Part shown: positions 49,226-62,652 of the stretch, one piece after another
How positions within the stretch are numbered: position 1 is the stretch's first letter
How the letters are laid out: every line of letters starts with the position of its first letter
Origin: Collinsella aerofaciens
Lineage (GTDB): Bacteria; Actinomycetota; Coriobacteriia; Coriobacteriales; Coriobacteriaceae
Assembly (NCBI RefSeq): GCF_015555045.1
Contig: NZ_JADNJQ010000001.1
Coordinates: 186,001 to 250,000 of the forward strand
Reading direction: 5' to 3'
DNA: 64,000 nucleotides
Notes under the pieces: model-generated
Seen by the model: only the letters and a program-made list of their open reading frames with translations
Database searches by the model: none
What the model was told of the DNA's origin: nothing
Made by a program: the position numbers and the translations under genes

Positions 49226-49294
49226 GCTTTTGTGTTTAGCGCCTTTTTGTTTGGTGACAATAACCTTAGCAGGAACGCAAAGCTAGGAGGCGCT

Positions 49295-50260
49295 ATGTGT
49301 ACGAGCATTCGATTTACCGATAATTCTGGTCACATGTATCTAGGCCGCAACCTAGACTGGAGCTTTGACTACGGCCAACAGGTTCGCGTGATGCCGCGCG
49401 GGTTCCACGTCCCGTATTCGTTTATCGACGATGCGTCGGCGGCGCACGCGGTAATCGGCATGTGCATCGATTACGAGAACTACCCTATGTTCTTCGACTG
49501 CGGCAACGATGCGGGCCTCGCCGTGGCGGGTCTCAATTTCCCGGGTTATGCCGAGTATGCCGAGGGCCCTGTCGACGGCAAGACCAATATCGCGGCCTAT
49601 GAGTTTCCCCTGTGGGTGGCAGCGACGTTCTCGACGGTCGATGAGGTCGAGGCCGCGCTGCGCGACACGGTGATTGTCGCCAAATCTGCCGGAGAGGGGC
49701 TGGGCGTGTCACTGCTCCATTGGATTATCGGCGACAGCCAGCGCAGCATCGTGGTCGAGATGATGACTGACGGCCTGCATGTATACGACGATCCGGTCGA
49801 CACCCTTGCCAATCAGCCGACCTTCCCGTGGCATATGGAAAACCTACGCACCTATATCACCGCCACAAGCGATTTTCCGCAGACGGCGACATGGCGTGGC
49901 GCCGAGCTCAAGCCCTATGGAGCCGGTGCCGGCATGCGCGGCATTCCGGGCGATTGCTATTCGCCGAGCCGTTTTGTAAAGGCGGCGTACCTCAATGCCA
50001 ATTACCCGCAAAAGGAGAGCGAGACCGAAAACGTCGTTCGCATGTTCCGCTCGCTCGAGGGCGTGGTGATGATCGAGGGAGCGTCCAGGATGGGCGATGG
50101 CAAGTTCGAGAAGACTATCTACACCGGATGCTTTAGCGCGCGCACGGGCAATTATTACTACGCGATGTATGGGGATCCGTCGATTCGCTACGTGAGCCTG
50201 ATGGATGCCGAGGGCGCGAGCCCCGATAGACTCGTGGTTCCCGAGCCGCGTCGTTCGTAG
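49295..50260 (+). CDS. Bile salt hydrolase (choloylglycine hydrolase family)
   Basis: A 321-residue Ntn hydrolase that cleaves the amide of glyco- or tauro-conjugated bile acids, or a penicillin-V-acylase-like relative. The nucleophile Cys2 is set by the ATG-TGT start. Arg18 and Asp21 in GRNLDW, Asn81 in LNFPG, NQPTFPWHMENL (oxyanion Asn) and SPSRFVKAAYL (Arg) match bile salt hydrolases. No signal peptide. AGGAGG precedes the ATG; the longer upstream frame would bury Cys2. Substrate preference cannot be read. Confidence 0.88.
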   Translation: MCTSIRFTDNSGHMYLGRNLDWSFDYGQQVRVMPRGFHVPYSFIDDASAAHAVIGMCIDYENYPMFFDCGNDAGLAVAGLNFPGYAEYAEGPVDGKTNIAAYEFPLWVAATFSTVDEVEAALRDTVIVAKSAGEGLGVSLLHWIIGDSQRSIVVEMMTDGLHVYDDPVDTLANQPTFPWHMENLRTYITATSDFPQTATWRGAELKPYGAGAGMRGIPGDCYSPSRFVKAAYLNANYPQKESETENVVRMFRSLEGVVMIEGASRMGDGKFEKTIYTGCFSARTGNYYYAMYGDPSIRYVSLMDAEGASPDRLVVPEPRRS

Positions 50261-54674: not shown

Positions 54675-54759
54675 AAATTGAACTTTCGGATAATGTGCCG
54701 CGCTATACTGCTGCCTAAATTGAACTCAGGTTCAATTCGTGTTCTATAAATTGAACTTT
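54675..54759 (+). promoter_or_regulatory. Operator region with repeated TTGAAC sites before the XRE-aminotransferase gene
   Basis: AAATTGAACTTT occurs twice (54675-54686 and 54748-54759) and a dyad ATTGAAC-TCAG-GTTCAAT lies between (54719-54736, allowing one base in the centre). TATACT at 54704-54709 is a good -10 box. The first site covers the -35 region and the others lie downstream of the start. Layout of an autorepressed promoter. Confidence 0.65.
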
Positions 54760-54777
54760 GCCAGCAAGGAGGTTCTA

Positions 54778-56298
54778 GTGGCCCAAGAGACGTTTAGCGA
54801 TCGCCTGCGACAGACTATGTCCGATCGCGACGTTCGCCAGTCGGACGTAATCCGCGCATCGGAGATGCTCGGCAAAAAACTCGGCAAGAGTCAGATGAGC
54901 CAATATGTGAGCGGCAAGACGATTCCGCGGCGCGATGTGGCAGAGCTGCTCGCTCGCATTTTGGAGGTCGATGTTACCTGGCTGCTTGCCGGTGACGCCG
55001 ATCAAGGCGAGGCATCATCGCCCCGTAACGTTTCCAAGCCCGAACCCCATCCCTCAGCTCAAATTCCAAGGAGCACCACCATGCGTACTTTTTCTAAATC
55101 CACCAAGCTCGAGAACGTTCTATATGACGTGCGTGGCCCCGTCGTCGACGAGGCCGCCCGCATGGAGGGCGAGGGCGAGCGCATCCTCAAGCTCAACATC
55201 GGTAATCCGGCACCCTTTGGTTTCCGCACGCCCGATGAGGTCATTAAGGACATGCGCCAGCAGCTGCCCGACTGCGAAGGCTATTCCAACTCGCGCGGCC
55301 TGTTCTCCGCGCGCAAGGCGATTATGCAGTACTCGCAGATCAAGGGCCTGCCCAACGTTCAGATGGAGCATATCTACACGGGCAACGGCGTGTCCGAGCT
55401 CATTCAGCTTTCGATGAACGCGCTGCTCGACAACGGCGACGAGATTCTGATCCCCAGCCCCGACTACCCGCTGTGGACGGCGTGCGCGACCCTTGCCGGC
55501 GGCCATCCCGTGCACTATCTGTGCGACGAGCAGGCCGATTGGTATCCCGACCTGCAGGATATGGAGTCTAAGATCACGAGCGCGACCAAGGCCCTCGTCA
55601 TCATCAACCCCAACAATCCCACGGGCTCTGTCTATCCGCGCGAGGTGCTCGAGGGCATTGTCGAGATTGCGCGCAGGCACCAGCTCATGATTTTTGCCGA
55701 CGAGATTTACGACCGCCTGTGCATGGACGGCTACGAGCACGTCTCCATTGCATCGCTCGCCCCCGACCTGCCCTGCATTACGTTTAGCGGCCTGTCCAAG
55801 TCGCATATGATTGCGGGCTATCGTATTGGCTGGATGGTGCTTTCGGGCAACCAGCGCTGCATGAGCGACTTTATCATGGGCGTCAACATGCTTTCCAACA
55901 TGCGCCTGTGCTCCAACGTGCCGGCTCAGTCGATCGTTCAGACGGCACTCGGTGGCCATCAGTCGGTCAACGACTACATCCGTCCCGGCGGCCGTGTCTA
56001 CGAGCAGCGAAACTTTGTGTATGAGGCACTCAACAAGATTGACGGCATCTCGGTGGTTAAGCCGCGTGCGGCGTTCTACATCTTCCCCAAGATGGATGTT
56101 AAAAAGTTCAACATCACCGATGACGAACAGTTCGCCCTTGACCTGCTGCACGAGAAGAAGATCCTGATTACGCGCGGCGGCGGCTTTAACTGGGCTGAGC
56201 CCGACCACTTCCGTATCGTGTACCTGCCGCGCATGGAAGTGCTCAAAGAGTCGCTCGAAGACCTCGCCGATTTCTTTGACCATTACCGCCAGGCGTAA
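54778..56298 (+). CDS. XRE-HTH domain fused to a class I PLP aminotransferase
   Basis: 506 residues from GTG 54778 behind AAGGAGG. Residues about 4-68 are an XRE-type HTH (RQSDVIRASEMLGKKLGKSQMSQYVSGKTIPRRDVAELL). A proline-rich linker (about 75-100) leads to a full aminotransferase of the AlaA/AspC-like class (YTGNGVSELIQLSM, NPNNPTGSVY, ADEIYDRL, PLP Lys341 in SGLSKSHMIAGYRIGW). XRE is unusual here: known regulator-aminotransferase fusions (MocR) use a GntR helix. The linker contains an in-frame AAGGAG-N7-ATG at 55068-55083. TTGAAC sites upstream suggest autoregulation sensing PLP or an amino acid. Confidence 0.88.
   Translation: MAQETFSDRLRQTMSDRDVRQSDVIRASEMLGKKLGKSQMSQYVSGKTIPRRDVAELLARILEVDVTWLLAGDADQGEASSPRNVSKPEPHPSAQIPRSTTMRTFSKSTKLENVLYDVRGPVVDEAARMEGEGERILKLNIGNPAPFGFRTPDEVIKDMRQQLPDCEGYSNSRGLFSARKAIMQYSQIKGLPNVQMEHIYTGNGVSELIQLSMNALLDNGDEILIPSPDYPLWTACATLAGGHPVHYLCDEQADWYPDLQDMESKITSATKALVIINPNNPTGSVYPREVLEGIVEIARRHQLMIFADEIYDRLCMDGYEHVSIASLAPDLPCITFSGLSKSHMIAGYRIGWMVLSGNQRCMSDFIMGVNMLSNMRLCSNVPAQSIVQTALGGHQSVNDYIRPGGRVYEQRNFVYEALNKIDGISVVKPRAAFYIFPKMDVKKFNITDDEQFALDLLHEKKILITRGGGFNWAEPDHFRIVYLPRMEVLKESLEDLADFFDHYRQA
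55068..55083 (+). promoter_or_regulatory. Internal ribosome binding site and start for a free aminotransferase
   Basis: AAGGAG (55068-55073), 7 bases, then ATG (55081-55083), exactly where the aminotransferase domain begins and in frame with the fusion. It would give a 405-residue enzyme without the HTH domain. Confidence 0.65.
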
Positions 56299-56426: not shown

Positions 56427-56443
56427 TATTCCAAAATGGAATA
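56427..56443 (+). promoter_or_regulatory. Operator-like palindrome TATTCCA-AAA-TGGAATA
   Basis: 17-base dyad, 81 bases before the amidohydrolase start, overlapping a -10-like TACAGT (56442-56447). It is the best candidate control site for the 56525-61605 operon. Confidence 0.5.
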
Positions 56444-56524
56444 CAGTGGGCTTAAGCTGGAATTGATGTCCGGGTACCTGCTTTTCTAGAATGTTTTCAA
56501 CAAGATGAAAGGCGGTTTCAACCA

Positions 56525-57559
56525 ATGATTATCGATGCAAATTCCTACTGGTTCGACGAGCGCATCTTTCATGACGAGACGCTCTGCGAACAGTTTTTGG
56601 CCGAGGTACCCCGCGCCTATGACACCGAAGGCTATCTGACCATGAATTCCGCTGGCAAACGACAGATCGTGATCGAGATGCCCGCCGGTTCTCCGGGTCT
56701 TAACTACATTGAGGGCGACTACACCCTCGAGAAGCGCTTGGCCGATATGGATGAGGCGGGGGTCGACAAGGCGATCCTCAAGCTCCCCGGCTGTCACGAG
56801 TGGATGTCGCTCGAGATGTGCCGGCGTTTCAACGACGGTATGGCTGCTGACGCGAAGGCGTCAAGTGGCCGTCTGATTCCGCTTGTCGCTGTGCCGCCCT
56901 TTGGCACCAAAGCAAATTTGGAGGAGCTCGACCGCAGACTCGACGATGGTTTTGCGGGTGTGCAGCTCTGCGCTCACTACGGCAAGCGCTATCTCGACGA
57001 CCAGGTCTTCTCGAGTTTTTTCGAGCACCTGAACGAACGCCATGTCACCGTTTACGTGCACCATGTTCCCGTGCCGGTCGAGAACGAGTCGCTTCTCGCG
57101 TACGACAACCTTCGCCGCTCTTATGGCCGCTGCGTCGACCAAACTACGGCGATCGGCCGAGAGATCTTTGGCGATTTCTTTGAGCGCTACCCCAATATCA
57201 AGATGGTCCACTCCATGCTCGGTGGCGCTTATTTTGCGTTTAAGGAGATGCTGCTGCCGCACGGTCCCAAGCGTCCAGATGCCTCGGGTCGCTTCCAGAC
57301 CGATACCGAGACGGTCTCCAAGCGTCTTGAGAACAACGTTTATTTCGACATGTCCCATGCTCAGCCCTGGGGCGAGACGCTTCTTGCCTGTGCGGTTGAG
57401 GTCCTTGGTGCAGACCATATTGTCTTTGGTACGAGTTATCCCGTTAAACGCGAGTGGCTAACAGAGGGTGTCGCCTGCGTCCGCGCCACAGATTTAAGTG
57501 ATACGGACAAGGACCTTATGCTTGGCGGCACGGCACAGCGCTTGTACGGCATCGAGTGA
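56525..57559 (+). CDS. Amidohydrolase 2-family (ACMSD-like) metal hydrolase
   Basis: 344 residues with the TIM-barrel layout of Amidohydro_2 proteins: IIDANSYWFDERIF at the N-terminus (the usual HxH is replaced by NSY), VQLCAHYGKRYLDD, VYVHHVPVP, the central NIKMVHSMLGGA and the C-terminal VFGTSYPVKREW (Asp of the usual GSDYP is Thr). Several metal ligands are thus unlike those of ACMSD, and a different chemistry or weak metal binding is possible. It opens an operon with two ceramidase-fold genes and a PTS permease; GAAAGG precedes the ATG. Confidence 0.78.
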   Translation: MIIDANSYWFDERIFHDETLCEQFLAEVPRAYDTEGYLTMNSAGKRQIVIEMPAGSPGLNYIEGDYTLEKRLADMDEAGVDKAILKLPGCHEWMSLEMCRRFNDGMAADAKASSGRLIPLVAVPPFGTKANLEELDRRLDDGFAGVQLCAHYGKRYLDDQVFSSFFEHLNERHVTVYVHHVPVPVENESLLAYDNLRRSYGRCVDQTTAIGREIFGDFFERYPNIKMVHSMLGGAYFAFKEMLLPHGPKRPDASGRFQTDTETVSKRLENNVYFDMSHAQPWGETLLACAVEVLGADHIVFGTSYPVKREWLTEGVACVRATDLSDTDKDLMLGGTAQRLYGIE

Positions 57560-57585
57560 GCGACAGATAAAGGAGGGCGTTCGTC

Positions 57586-58833
57586 ATGGATAAGGGAGAG
57601 ATGAAGGCCGGAGCCGCCCGGGTGGCCATTAACTTAGAGGACGTATTGCCGTTCGACGGTTTCGACGCACTCCGTCATGAAATCTTTGCCCGTGCCTTCG
57701 TGGTCGAAGGGATGGGGCGGCGCGCTTGCATCCTTTCACTTGAGGTTACCTCGATCGCTCCGGCCCTACTCGTCGATCTGCGTGAGGTTGTCAAGGATGT
57801 CTCCAATTGCGACGGCGCCTTTTCTTGGGTGGTCCCGACCCACACGTTTTCTGCGCCTCACGTGCGCACCCCTGGGCATCTGGCCGACACCGATGCCCGC
57901 GATCGAAATGAGCGCTATCGTGCCGCGCTCATCGCCGCGACACGCGCGGCCGTTGAGCAGGCGGTTGCGGGCATTCGCTCTGTCACGCTCGCCTCGGCGG
58001 AGGGCTACTGTCCTGTGAACGTTAACCGCGACATTGAGACGCCGGCCGGCTGGTGGCTGGGAGTAGACCCCAAGGGGTTTGCCGACCACGCGATGCCCAT
58101 ACTTGTCGCGAGGGATGCCGAGGGCGGGCTCGTTGCCATGCTTGCGACGGCTGATGTCCAGTCTTCCGTGCTCGACGGATCGCACGATTCTCAGGGGAAG
58201 CGCTTGGTGAGCGGGGACCTCTTTGGCTTTGCCGCCATGGCTCTCGAGCGCGAATTGGGCGGAGTCGTGTTGCTGCTACCCGGTGCCGCGGGGGATCAGA
58301 GTCCGGCGGAGCGCGCCGTAACCGTTGCGTTCGATTCGACCGGGGCGAAGCAAACGTTAGATGCTCACGAGAGTGGATATCGCATGCTGCATCGACAGGG
58401 TCGCGCTATGAGCGATGCGTTGATTGAGGCCGTCCGTGCGGCGCGTGAGGACGATGCCATCGGCGTCGATGCTCGCACGGTCGACGTCCTTTTGCCCGCC
58501 CAGACGCGCGCCGACTTCTGCTCATTGGCCCCGCATCGAACTTATGGGTTTCATGCGGCAGGCGAACAGCGTACGAGGGTCTATTTACTTCGGCTGGGAA
58601 ATGTCGAGTTCGTTGGTATCCAGCCCGAGGTTTCGAGCTCGTTTGGCGCCGCCGTGCGCGCCGCCCGATTCTGCCCCGTGCTCTTTGCCACGCTTGTCAA
58701 CGGAGGGCAAAAGTATCTGCCGGCCCCCGATGCGTACGAGAAAATCACCTATGAGGCCATGAACTCCGGCTTCGCCGCCGGTTCCCATGAGCGCCTCCTT
58801 CAAACCATCCTTGCCGCTTTAAACGCGGCATGA
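57586..58833 (+). CDS. Neutral ceramidase-fold protein, first copy (reduced metal site)
   Basis: 415 residues of the neutral/alkaline ceramidase N-terminal domain family (PF04734-like). The early VPTHTFSAPH corresponds to the ceramidase ATHTHSGP motif but has Phe for the second His. The usual strand with a zinc His reads ATADVQSSVLDG here, without it. GAAGDQSPAERA matches the active-site GDxSPN with Ser kept. No signal peptide, so it is cytoplasmic, unlike secreted ceramidases. GGAGGG precedes the ATG, 26 bases after the amidohydrolase gene. Its substrate is probably not ceramide. Confidence 0.75.
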   Translation: MDKGEMKAGAARVAINLEDVLPFDGFDALRHEIFARAFVVEGMGRRACILSLEVTSIAPALLVDLREVVKDVSNCDGAFSWVVPTHTFSAPHVRTPGHLADTDARDRNERYRAALIAATRAAVEQAVAGIRSVTLASAEGYCPVNVNRDIETPAGWWLGVDPKGFADHAMPILVARDAEGGLVAMLATADVQSSVLDGSHDSQGKRLVSGDLFGFAAMALERELGGVVLLLPGAAGDQSPAERAVTVAFDSTGAKQTLDAHESGYRMLHRQGRAMSDALIEAVRAAREDDAIGVDARTVDVLLPAQTRADFCSLAPHRTYGFHAAGEQRTRVYLLRLGNVEFVGIQPEVSSSFGAAVRAARFCPVLFATLVNGGQKYLPAPDAYEKITYEAMNSGFAAGSHERLLQTILAALNAA

Positions 58834-58850
58834 CAAAAAGGAGAACTTGC

Positions 58851-59969
58851 ATGAATATCGGACATGCACGCCGCAAGATTACCCCGCAAGGCGACATCTA
58901 TCTAATCGGATACCGCAACCTCCCCAACCGTCTGGAGCCTGCGACAGGCGTCCATGACGACGTCTTCGCCAACGCGATTCTTTTCCAACAGGACGACCGC
59001 GAAGTTTTTCTCTTCAACGCCGATGTTCTCGAGTTTGAGGAGGGCATGGCCGAGGAGGTTAAGACGATGCTCGCCGAGCGCTACGGAATCGACCGTGACT
59101 GCGTTCTGCTCTCCGCGACGCACGACCACACTTCGATCGTCGCCTACCATCGCAGCTGGTGGACGGGAAAATTCAACGAGGACTACTATCGCTGGTTCCT
59201 CGATACCATCTGTCAATGCTTCGAAGAGTGCCGCGCCAACGCGCGACCTGCGACCTGCCGCATGGGCAAAAAAGTCATCACCGGTTTCTACGACAACCGC
59301 ATCATCCCAGGTGAACTCGCCGACAATGAGGTCATTGTCGTATCGTTCTTCGATACCGAAGGCAAGCCATTTGCGGGCTTTGTGAACTGGGCGGTGCATT
59401 CTGCCTGTGTCGGACCCGACTGCACGGAGCTCACGAGCGAACTCGCCGGTCTTACCGGCAAAAAGCTCGCTCAGAGTCTTGGTTACTATCCGGCCATGGT
59501 CGTCGGTGCTGCTGGCGACTGTAGCGACCGCAATTTTCGCCAGGGACGCGGCATTCCCGAGGTCGAGCGCGTTTCGACCGGTCTTGCCGAGGCGATTTCC
59601 CAGATCAAGCTCGATCGCGAGGTCGTTCTTGACCGCATCGAGCCTCAGACGTTCTATCACACCGTTGCCCATGACGACTTTTCGCTCACGCTTAAGTGTG
59701 CCGTCATCAGTCTGGGCGGCCTGCATCTCTTTGTGTTCCCGAGTGAGCTCGGCAGCGACTTGGGTATTCGCATGAAGCGCGAATGCCCGGTCGAGGGAAT
59801 AGTTTGCGGTTACACCAACGGCTATTTCGAGTATTTCCTTCCGGCACGCGAGTACGGCCTCTCCTTTGAGACCGAGCGTACTCAGATTCCCCAGGGCGAA
59901 CCGGAACGTCTGTGTGACAAGTTCTGCCAGACGACGAGACTTCTCGGCGCAGCAGATTCGCGTCTGTAG
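58851..59969 (+). CDS. Neutral ceramidase-fold protein, second copy (metal site largely kept)
   Basis: 372 residues, paralogous in plan to the gene before it. LLSATHDHTSIVAYH matches ATHTHSGP with both His kept, FVNWAVHSACVGPD keeps the next His, and VVGAAGDCSDRNF fits the GDxSPN nucleophile loop (Ser kept). No signal peptide. AAAAGGAG precedes the ATG at 58851, 17 bases after the first copy. Together with the PTS permease behind it, a cytoplasmic amidase acting on an imported phosphorylated compound is inferred. Confidence 0.75.
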   Translation: MNIGHARRKITPQGDIYLIGYRNLPNRLEPATGVHDDVFANAILFQQDDREVFLFNADVLEFEEGMAEEVKTMLAERYGIDRDCVLLSATHDHTSIVAYHRSWWTGKFNEDYYRWFLDTICQCFEECRANARPATCRMGKKVITGFYDNRIIPGELADNEVIVVSFFDTEGKPFAGFVNWAVHSACVGPDCTELTSELAGLTGKKLAQSLGYYPAMVVGAAGDCSDRNFRQGRGIPEVERVSTGLAEAISQIKLDREVVLDRIEPQTFYHTVAHDDFSLTLKCAVISLGGLHLFVFPSELGSDLGIRMKRECPVEGIVCGYTNGYFEYFLPAREYGLSFETERTQIPQGEPERLCDKFCQTTRLLGAADSRL

Positions 59970-60162
59970 ACCTGATTGCGTGACATGGGCCAATGAGGCT
60001 CGCTGCCATGTGATCGGCATCTTCCATCTTCTCTGCCGTTTCCCATCCCGGGCGTACGTGCGTCCGCGGATTTCAAAGGGGGAAGCGGGTTCCTTGCCCT
60101 CCCACGTCGACTACGGAGGCATGAAATCGATGCTATACCCCGCTCAGAAAAAGGAGAATTCC

Positions 60163-61605
60163 ATGAAATACCAGAAGCTTTGCGATGAAATCATCACAAA
60201 GGTCGGTGGTCGAGACAATGTGTTAGACGTGAGCCACTGCATTACGCGTCTCCGCTTCCACCTCAAGGATGAATCGCTCGCCCAGACTAATGAGCTTAAG
60301 GCGACGAAGGGCGTCGTTGACGTCATCCAGGCCGGCGGACAGTATCAGGTCGTGATTGGTGCCACTGTCGAGGCCGTCTACAACGACCTTGTTCAGATTG
60401 GCGGGTTCGACTCCAAACCCGCACTCGATATCGATGAAGGCGACGACGTCAAAAAGGGCGATCCATTCTCGCGTCTGCTGGCCATCATCTCCGAGATTCT
60501 GCAACCGGTTCTTGGCGTGCTTATGGCCGGTGGCTTTATCAAGTCGATGCTCGCGCTCTGCACGGTTGCCGGTTGGCTTGCCAAGGACAGCAATACGTAT
60601 GTGACGCTCTCGGCAATCGGAGATTCGGTCTTCTATTACTTTCCGCTAATCATTGGCTGGACGTCGGCCAAGAAGTTCGGACTTAAGCCCGTTATGGGAA
60701 TGGCGCTCGGTGGTATCCTCGTCTACCCGACGCTCGTTGCCCTTATGGGCGGAGATCCGCTCTACACGCTCGGCGCCGGCACGGTCTTCGAGTCCAATGT
60801 CTACGGTGATATTTTTGGCATCCCGCTGATCATGCAGAATTACTCATCGACGATTCTGCCTGCGATCTTTATCGTCTGGATTGCCTCCAAGGTGCACAAG
60901 GCCCTTTCTAACGCGCTGCCCGCGCTTGTGAGCTCGTTCTTCTCCAACATCCTGACGCTCCTCATTTGCGGCATCCTTGGCCTGCTTGTGGTCGGTCCGG
61001 TCATGACGGTCCTCTCCAACATCGTTGCCCAGATCATCTTGATGCTCATCAACTTCCAGCCCGCCATCGCCGGCTTCGTCATCGGCACGTTCTGGAGCCT
61101 GCTCGTCATGTTCGGCCTGCACTGGGGTATCATCCCGCTGTGGTTCCTCGATGTCGCAACCTACGGCTATGACCTCATTAATCCGCTCGTGTATGCAGGC
61201 GGTTGTGCCATCGCCGGTGCTGTGCTTGGCATGATCATCCGAACCAAGGATTCCGAGGAAAATGCTGCCGTCAACATTCCCGCCCTTGTCTCTTCGATTT
61301 TCGGTGTCAACGAGCCTGCGCTTTACGCCATCTTGCTGCCGCGTAAGCGCCTTATGTGGGCAACCTTTATTTCCGCTGGTGTAGGCGGCGCCATCGCCGG
61401 CCTCATGGGTGCCAAACTCTATGCCTTCGGTGCCTCCGGCCCGCTCGGTTTTCCGAGCTTTATTAACCCTGCCGGCATCGACATGGGCTTTATCGGCCTT
61501 GTCATCTCCGGTGTGGTCGCTTTCGTTCTGGCTCTTGTCGCCGCTATGGTGATCGGTACCAGGAAGGACGAGGGCGGTAAGGCGCTCAACATCTCGGTGG
61601 ACTAG
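60163..61605 (+). CDS. PTS transporter EIIBC, beta-glucoside/glucose-type superfamily, without EIIA
   Basis: 480 residues. The EIIB domain (about 1-80) has the phosphorylation motif DVSHCITRLRFHL (Cys26). The EIIC domain (about 105-450) has 10 helices with GIIPLWFLDVATYGYDLINPL and FGVNEPALYAILLPRKR, typical of the Glc/beta-glucoside superfamily. There is no EIIA domain, so a Crr-like EIIA elsewhere must phosphorylate it. AAAAAGGAG precedes the ATG at 60163. The 193-base gap (59970-60162) after the ceramidase-like gene holds no gene. The sugar cannot be read. Confidence 0.9.
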   Translation: MKYQKLCDEIITKVGGRDNVLDVSHCITRLRFHLKDESLAQTNELKATKGVVDVIQAGGQYQVVIGATVEAVYNDLVQIGGFDSKPALDIDEGDDVKKGDPFSRLLAIISEILQPVLGVLMAGGFIKSMLALCTVAGWLAKDSNTYVTLSAIGDSVFYYFPLIIGWTSAKKFGLKPVMGMALGGILVYPTLVALMGGDPLYTLGAGTVFESNVYGDIFGIPLIMQNYSSTILPAIFIVWIASKVHKALSNALPALVSSFFSNILTLLICGILGLLVVGPVMTVLSNIVAQIILMLINFQPAIAGFVIGTFWSLLVMFGLHWGIIPLWFLDVATYGYDLINPLVYAGGCAIAGAVLGMIIRTKDSEENAAVNIPALVSSIFGVNEPALYAILLPRKRLMWATFISAGVGGAIAGLMGAKLYAFGASGPLGFPSFINPAGIDMGFIGLVISGVVAFVLALVAAMVIGTRKDEGGKALNISVD

Positions 61606-61728: not shown

Positions 61729-62652
61729 TTATGACGGTCGTGCCGCGGTGGAAGACGTACGGTCGCCCTGCAGGAGCTGACGGTAGGGGAGGAAGCCGAT
61801 GAACGAGACGACCGCCTGCGAGTGCGCAGCGTTTCGCTTGAGGTAGAGCCTGACCTCGGAGGTCGTCGCGGGCTCGAGCGGCACCAGGGCTACCTTTCCG
61901 CTGGCGAGCGATTCCGCCGGCTTGCGCATGAGGAATGAGACGCCGGCGCCGCGCGCGACAAGGGAGATGATGTTCTCGGCTCGTTTGCCGGTAAACGTAA
62001 CACGTGGGCCAAATCCAGCTTCGCGACAAAGGGAAAGGACGAGCTCGCTTACGAACGAGCCTTGGGGAAGCATGAGGAAATTCTCGTCGATAAGGTCGTC
62101 TATCTCGACGGTGTCACGTTCGGCGAGCGGATGGTCGAGTGGAAGGACGGCCACGAGCCGGTCGGTCGTAAAGGGAATCTTTTTGAACTCCGGCTCGATG
62201 GCGCCGCCGTCACGGATGAAGGCCAGGTCAATGTCCCCGTGCAGGAGCATGCGCCTGAGTGTGTCGCCCTCGCCCTCGATGAGCTCAACGGAATATGAGG
62301 GGTTCGCCTGCTGAAAATCGATGACGGCGTCCGTGATCCCATAAGGGGCCATAATGGGGATAGAACCTACGGTGAGGTGCTCGAGCGGCTCACCTGCGCC
62401 TATTTGAATGGCGGCAAGATAGCGGTGCTGAAGCGTCGCAATTTTTTGCGCATAGGGGAGGAGCGCTTCACCTTGCGCGGTGAGTGTTACGTGGCGCTGG
62501 CTTCGATCGATGAGCTTGCAGCCGAGTTCGTGCTCCATTGCCATGATGTGCTTGGAGAGGGTTGATTGCGACATGAAAAGCAGTTCCGCCGCATCAAGAA
62601 ACGTGCGTGACTGCGCTAAGATGGCGAATTCGCCAAAGCGGCTGATATCCAT
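61729..62652 (-). CDS. LysR-type regulator, convergent with the PTS operon
   Basis: 307 residues: winged helix (LDAAELLFMSQSTLSKHIMAMEHELG) and effector domain (LTVGSIPIMAPYGITDAVIDF). GGAGG precedes the ATG. It faces the operon end and may control it in trans, or another target. The C-terminal tail (about 295-307) is polar and extra. No divergent partner: the deformylase gene is upstream on the same strand, 36 bases away. Confidence 0.9.
   Translation of the reverse strand: MDISRFGEFAILAQSRTFLDAAELLFMSQSTLSKHIMAMEHELGCKLIDRSQRHVTLTAQGEALLPYAQKIATLQHRYLAAIQIGAGEPLEHLTVGSIPIMAPYGITDAVIDFQQANPSYSVELIEGEGDTLRRMLLHGDIDLAFIRDGGAIEPEFKKIPFTTDRLVAVLPLDHPLAERDTVEIDDLIDENFLMLPQGSFVSELVLSLCREAGFGPRVTFTGKRAENIISLVARGAGVSFLMRKPAESLASGKVALVPLEPATTSEVRLYLKRNAAHSQAVVSFIGFLPYRQLLQGDRTSSTAARPS

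Follow-up and report, generated by a model that had tools for sequence, protein, structure and literature searches.

Why should proteins with the fold of neutral ceramidase, which is normally a secreted enzyme, sit in the cytoplasm and share an operon with a sugar permease? The question is raised by four forward-strand genes (56525-61605) in the window, the stretch of 64,000 nucleotides of Collinsella aerofaciens DNA that we analyzed. A sequence-only reading had described these genes as an amidohydrolase (AH), two ceramidase-fold proteins (CD1 and CD2) and a PTS permease (EIIBC), and had proposed that they import and phosphorylate an amide- or acyl-linked sugar and split it inside the cell. 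Its interpretation as a whole is partly supported. Gene calls, Pfam matches and predicted folds bear out all four genes, but a convergent LysR gene (62652-61729) and a putative operator (56427-56465) had been overlooked. The features of the locus are:

56427-56443, + strand: putative LysR-type operator TATTCCAAAATGGAATA, an inverted repeat with T-N11-A; lone match in the window, kept in relatives
56439-56465, + strand: GAATA-N16-GAATTG operator layout, found 5' of AH in relatives
56525-57559, + strand: AH, Amidohydro_2 protein (PF04909)
57586-58833, + strand: CD1, neutral-ceramidase fold with altered site (Foldseek to 2zws)
58851-59969, + strand: CD2, neutral-ceramidase fold with all zinc ligands (PF04734 above cut-off; Foldseek to 2zws)
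60163-61605, + strand: PTS EIIBC, beta-glucoside/sucrose type (PF00367, PF02378, TIGR01995)
61729-62652, - strand: LysR-family regulator, convergent with the operon (PF00126/PF03466)

Gene order, linkage and operator

The intergenic gaps are 26 (AH/CD1), 17 (CD1/CD2) and 193 bases (CD2/EIIBC); CD2 starts at ATG 58851 behind the ribosome-binding site AAGGAG, and the same start is used in relatives. The PTS genes of Konateibacter and Breznakia, EIIA included, begin no more than 30 bases after CD2, so a single transcript is likely there and may be presumed in the Collinsella window. Rfam models detected no riboswitch or other known RNA within the operon. Elsewhere in the window, a class I/II aminotransferase carries an N-terminal helix-turn-helix domain in a single reading frame (54739-56298), and a protein with the residues MCTSIRF...GRNLDWSFDYG (49232-50260) resembles, by eye only, penicillin V acylase or bile salt hydrolase.

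Of the 45 Collinsella genomes examined, each from a different species, 6 have CD1; where CD2 was searched for as well, it was found in these six, together with AH, EIIBC and the same flanks. A PF04734 profile search of the C. aerofaciens genome itself returned nothing over threshold though the CD2 protein passes the Pfam cut-off, and we do not count this as absence. Outside Collinsella, this gene order, AH-CD1-CD2-EIIBC(A), is repeated in a Coriobacteriia MAG, in MAGs of Clostridiales, and in Konateibacter massiliensis and Breznakia pachnodae. The cassette is also found in two further genomes of Breznakia's order (L113 and L114, the latter with an internal TGA in the AH frame) and on a plasmid of Enterococcus raffinosus, whose record lists CD1 and CD2 alike as 'hypothetical protein'. 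In every cassette CD1 and CD2 are neighbours. A chance neighbourhood is ruled out by the cassette's conservation in lineages of Coriobacteriia, Clostridia, Erysipelotrichia and Bacilli.

The regulatory features are conserved along with the genes. A LysR homologue adjoins the cassette in Konateibacter (47%), Breznakia (44%), Clostridiales (43%) and others. The sequence TATTCCAAAATGGAATA occurs once in the window, with 0.10 matches expected when one mismatch is allowed, and is present in 7/7 Coriobacteriia copies; its half-site GAATA is found at equal spacing in Firmicutes. In the initial comparison, each of the 14 cassette loci had the layout GAATA-N16-GAATTG 5' of AH; among the 83 loci compared, one unrelated locus had it too. 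It was afterwards found in both further cassettes, L113 and L114. The E. raffinosus locus (L107, position 6660) has it with one mismatch, about 100 bases before AH; two-mismatch matches at that locus are at chance level. The layout occurs once in this 2.29-Mb genome, 8 times in Konateibacter and 10 times in Breznakia, so that in the latter two the evidence is its position, not its count. The lone promoter-like match on the scanned stretch, TTGATG-18-TAGAAT (56463-56492, a consensus match only), overlaps GAATTG. An adjacent LysR gene and a T-N11-A operator common to relatives mark this as a probable LysR-regulated operon, and the LysR protein probably binds at the operator.

The permease has the EIIB and EIIC domains of the glucose-superfamily PTS (PF00367, 51.2 bits; PF02378, 122.4 bits). 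Its best NCBIfam match, TIGR01995, scores 441.9 bits, under the cut-off of 614.7 bits for a model that includes EIIA. Both domains and their order are the same as in TIGR01995-type systems, but the operon here lacks a 6-phospho-beta-glucosidase or sucrose-6-phosphate hydrolase and has an adjoining LysR gene. EIIA is fused to EIIBC in Clostridiales, L113 and E. raffinosus and is a separate gene in Breznakia; it is absent from the present operon and must act in trans. Three EIIA (PF00358) genes are found elsewhere in the genome, one of them flanked by a glmM-like and a nagB-like gene. Across phyla, the cassette unites a regulator of its own, a PTS permease and three hydrolase-like proteins; this combination is best accounted for by a PTS catabolic pathway, and we assign the cassette to this class with high confidence.

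Catalytic sites of the three hydrolase-like proteins

Predicted models of CD1 and CD2 both have the catalytic-domain fold of Pseudomonas aeruginosa neutral ceramidase (PaCD, 2zws; Foldseek E 1e-22 and TM 0.72 for CD1, E 3e-22 and TM 0.80 for CD2). They match the P. aeruginosa and human (ASAH2, 4wgk) enzymes and no other fold at E<0.001; CD1 is also linked to 2zws by a profile match (E 3e-8). The AlphaFold models have pLDDT 81 and pTM 0.86 (CD1) and pLDDT 77 and pTM 0.85 (CD2). Against the PF04734 gathering cut-off of 32.1 bits, CD2 scores 41.5, while CD1 falls below it with 13.5 bits, as does CD1 of E. raffinosus with 23.9. Hydropathy reveals no signal peptide or hydrophobic N-terminus in either protein, in agreement with the sequence-only reading. 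The CDs are thus unlike neutral ceramidase proper, which is secreted and has a C-terminal domain: they are cytoplasmic, about 370-415 residues long (CD2 has 372, compared with about 640), devoid of the C-terminal domain and encoded in a PTS operon.

The sites of the two proteins differ as had been proposed. Profile alignment to 2zws equates PaCD site residues H97, H99, H204, E411 and Y448 with CD2 H91, H93, H183, E299 and Y328, so that CD2 has all five site residues in common with neutral ceramidase. H91, H183, E299 and Y328 form its predicted zinc site and are invariant over a 16-row alignment. CD2 is the sole cassette protein with an intact hydrolase site, and by this comparison it is likely to be a zinc hydrolase. 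In CD1, the five equivalent positions together with the aspartate of the GxxGD motif read H86, F88, Q192, D237, E348 and Y377. This H-F-Q-D-E-Y pattern is found in 10/10 CD1 proteins of a 54-member family alignment, and an eleventh CD1 agrees; PaCD H204 is thus replaced by Gln, and neighbouring H99 by Phe, in 11/11. Loss of two His is seen in CD1 alone among the family members compared. All three His are retained by the other 44/54, of which 34 read H-H-H-D-E-Y, nine depart from this pattern only by having Asn or Glu in fourth place, and one has a gene call that ends before the last two site residues.

AH matches PF04909 (86.9 bits), and its closest solved relatives by sequence are LigW, ACMSD and resorcylate decarboxylases, which it resembles over about 270 residues. 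Unlike these enzymes, and again as the sequence-only reading had proposed, AH has NxY in place of the strand-1 HxH and Ser in place of the strand-8 Asp (N6, Y8 and S304 here), and only the strand-5 His is retained (H179). The same replacements occur in 13/13 AH proteins compared, which come from cassette, mannose-type PTS, ABC and MFS contexts; other His, Glu and Asp residues also stay invariant. Because the altered residues of AH and CD1 are themselves invariant, the changes are old and have been kept, which rules out decay of either protein. One AH relative (L119, 6277-9057) lies beside a GH3 glycosidase, an MFS sugar transporter and a metallo-beta-lactamase-fold protein, with no CD or PTS genes; a metallo-beta-lactamase-fold protein is found near AH in three contexts (L112, 6283-7233; L117, 9763-10830; L119, 4883-6277).

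Measured against its Collinsella siblings, CD1 of this genome shows about 80% identity in both DNA and protein, compared with 87-99% (DNA) and 94-99% (protein) for AH, CD2 and EIIBC; its low identity may reflect either a replaced or a fast-diverging allele.

Relatives of CD1 and CD2 in other operons

The description of CD1 and CD2 as two copies is misleading: they are 21% identical and fall in deeply separate clades. The tree indicates that they are ancient paralogues and rules out recent tandem duplication. Every PTS-linked CD falls in one clade (support 100/99) that spans two PTS families; CD1 lies outside it, its nearest outgroup being a protein from an Agrobacterium plasmid. The linkage to PTS genes on which the sequence-only reading depended holds in relatives: a PTS gene adjoins CD2 in the cassette loci, and CD2 relatives (24-29% identity) are found in separate, mannose-type PTS operons of Collinsella, Olsenella and others, including one with a second Breznakia copy. 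AH is close by in two of these operons (L115 and L117). Some mannose-type PTS operons serve for amino-sugar derivatives, among them glucosaminate and Amadori compounds. The CD-bearing operons have EIIABCD and a LevR-like activator in common with these, but no SIS-type deglycase was recognised in those examined. In Breznakia, a mannose-type PTS cluster (L083, 929-11644) combines a ceramidase-fold gene with genes for a HAD phosphatase and a PIG-L deacetylase. Conversely, in one Lachnospirales-order genome AH and CD1 accompany an ABC transporter with SBP_bac_5, and PTS and CD2 are absent. Since AH and CD1 occur without CD2, and CD2 relatives occur in PTS operons without CD1, the cassette looks like two modules joined.

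Cytoplasmic members of the ceramidase family are not the exception they had been taken for: relatives are present in 53 of 391 genomes of Konateibacter's class, mostly beside ABC-transporter, kinase and isomerase genes for sugars. None of 19 distant loci from that class carries PTS genes; they instead have aminotransferases, sugar kinases, isomerases and ABC transporters. Neighbours in the wider family include DegT aminotransferases, SIS proteins, FGGY/ROK/BadF kinases, Glucosamine_iso, NagA-like Amidohydro_1 and PIG-L. On a Microvirga plasmid (L108, 5383-9287), Glucosamine_iso, sugar isomerase, Amidohydro_1 and ceramidase-fold genes precede an ABC sugar transporter.

Proposed pathway and its alternatives

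The account that we favour, with about even confidence, is a LysR-controlled PTS cassette: CD2 would hydrolyse what has been imported and phosphorylated, and non-canonical steps would fall to AH and CD1. A modified sugar would be imported and phosphorylated by EIIBC, served by an EIIA encoded elsewhere, and CD2, a predicted zinc hydrolase without secretion signal or C-terminal domain, would cleave the product in the cytoplasm. The bond cut would most likely be an amide, of an N-acyl or N-linked amino sugar, and the amino-sugar phosphate released could enter NagB-type catabolism. AH and CD1 would act on the other part of the molecule, with CD1 possibly a partner of CD2. The wider-family neighbours (DegT, SIS, Glucosamine_iso, NagA-like and PIG-L proteins) favour an amino-sugar derivative and amide cleavage; an amide-bearing amino sugar as substrate is nevertheless slightly less probable than the scheme as a whole. 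Several observations stand against it: the cassette encodes neither a glycosidase nor a kinase or deaminase, the PTS resembles the beta-glucoside and not the GlcNAc subtype, the closest solved relatives of AH are aromatic decarboxylases, and AH occurs with CD1 beside the ABC transporter and, in one case, with an MFS carrier and GH3.

In the main rival, the cassette handles a glucoside that is acylated or aromatic; CD2 would then cleave an ester or an aryl amide, and AH would act on the aromatic part. The permease has its best score with the beta-glucoside family, and aryl glucosides are among the substrates known for that family; AH is nearest to LigW, ACMSD and the resorcylate decarboxylases; and a tannase gene lies a few kb from the gene for CD1's Agrobacterium outgroup. 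However, the cassette lacks a 6-phospho-beta-glucosidase, AH has lost the metal ligands of the decarboxylases, and the wider CD family adjoins amino-sugar genes; we consider this substrate class unlikely, though more probable than the remaining alternatives. Still less probable is an arrangement in which CD2 is the sole enzyme: CD1, without catalytic activity of its own, would form a complex with CD2 and mould its pocket, and AH would be a non-catalytic binding protein. Replacement of the zinc ligand H204 in every CD1, the single metal residue left in AH and the invariable adjacency of the CD1 and CD2 genes would fit such an arrangement, but AH and CD1 occur without CD2 in the Lachnospirales-order genome, and invariant His, Glu and Asp residues persist in AH. 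It is very improbable that the CDs are genuine ceramidases working inside the cell on sphingolipid or glycosphingolipid fragments that it has taken up: fold and ligands agree with PaCD, but there is no signal peptide, the C-terminal part of 2zws is absent, identity is about 15%, and PTS systems are not known to transport lipids.

A search of open-access literature found no description of this system. A bolder reading, which we advance tentatively, is that the ceramidase fold would serve as a sugar-phosphate amidase in a new class of PTS catabolic pathway, and AH and CD1 would carry out chemistry undescribed for their families. Together, our observations point to an undescribed route for uptake and splitting of a modified, probably amide-bearing, sugar, common to gut Collinsella and several unrelated gut Firmicutes. 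Cassette and operator have been kept across phyla of gut bacteria even where, as in E. raffinosus, the CD genes are annotated as hypothetical. If the proposal is true, the ceramidase fold gains a role outside lipid metabolism, its cytoplasmic relatives, present in 53 of 391 genomes of the one class sampled, become targets for assay, and one of the nutrients of Collinsella aerofaciens, a species often met in the human gut, would be identified.
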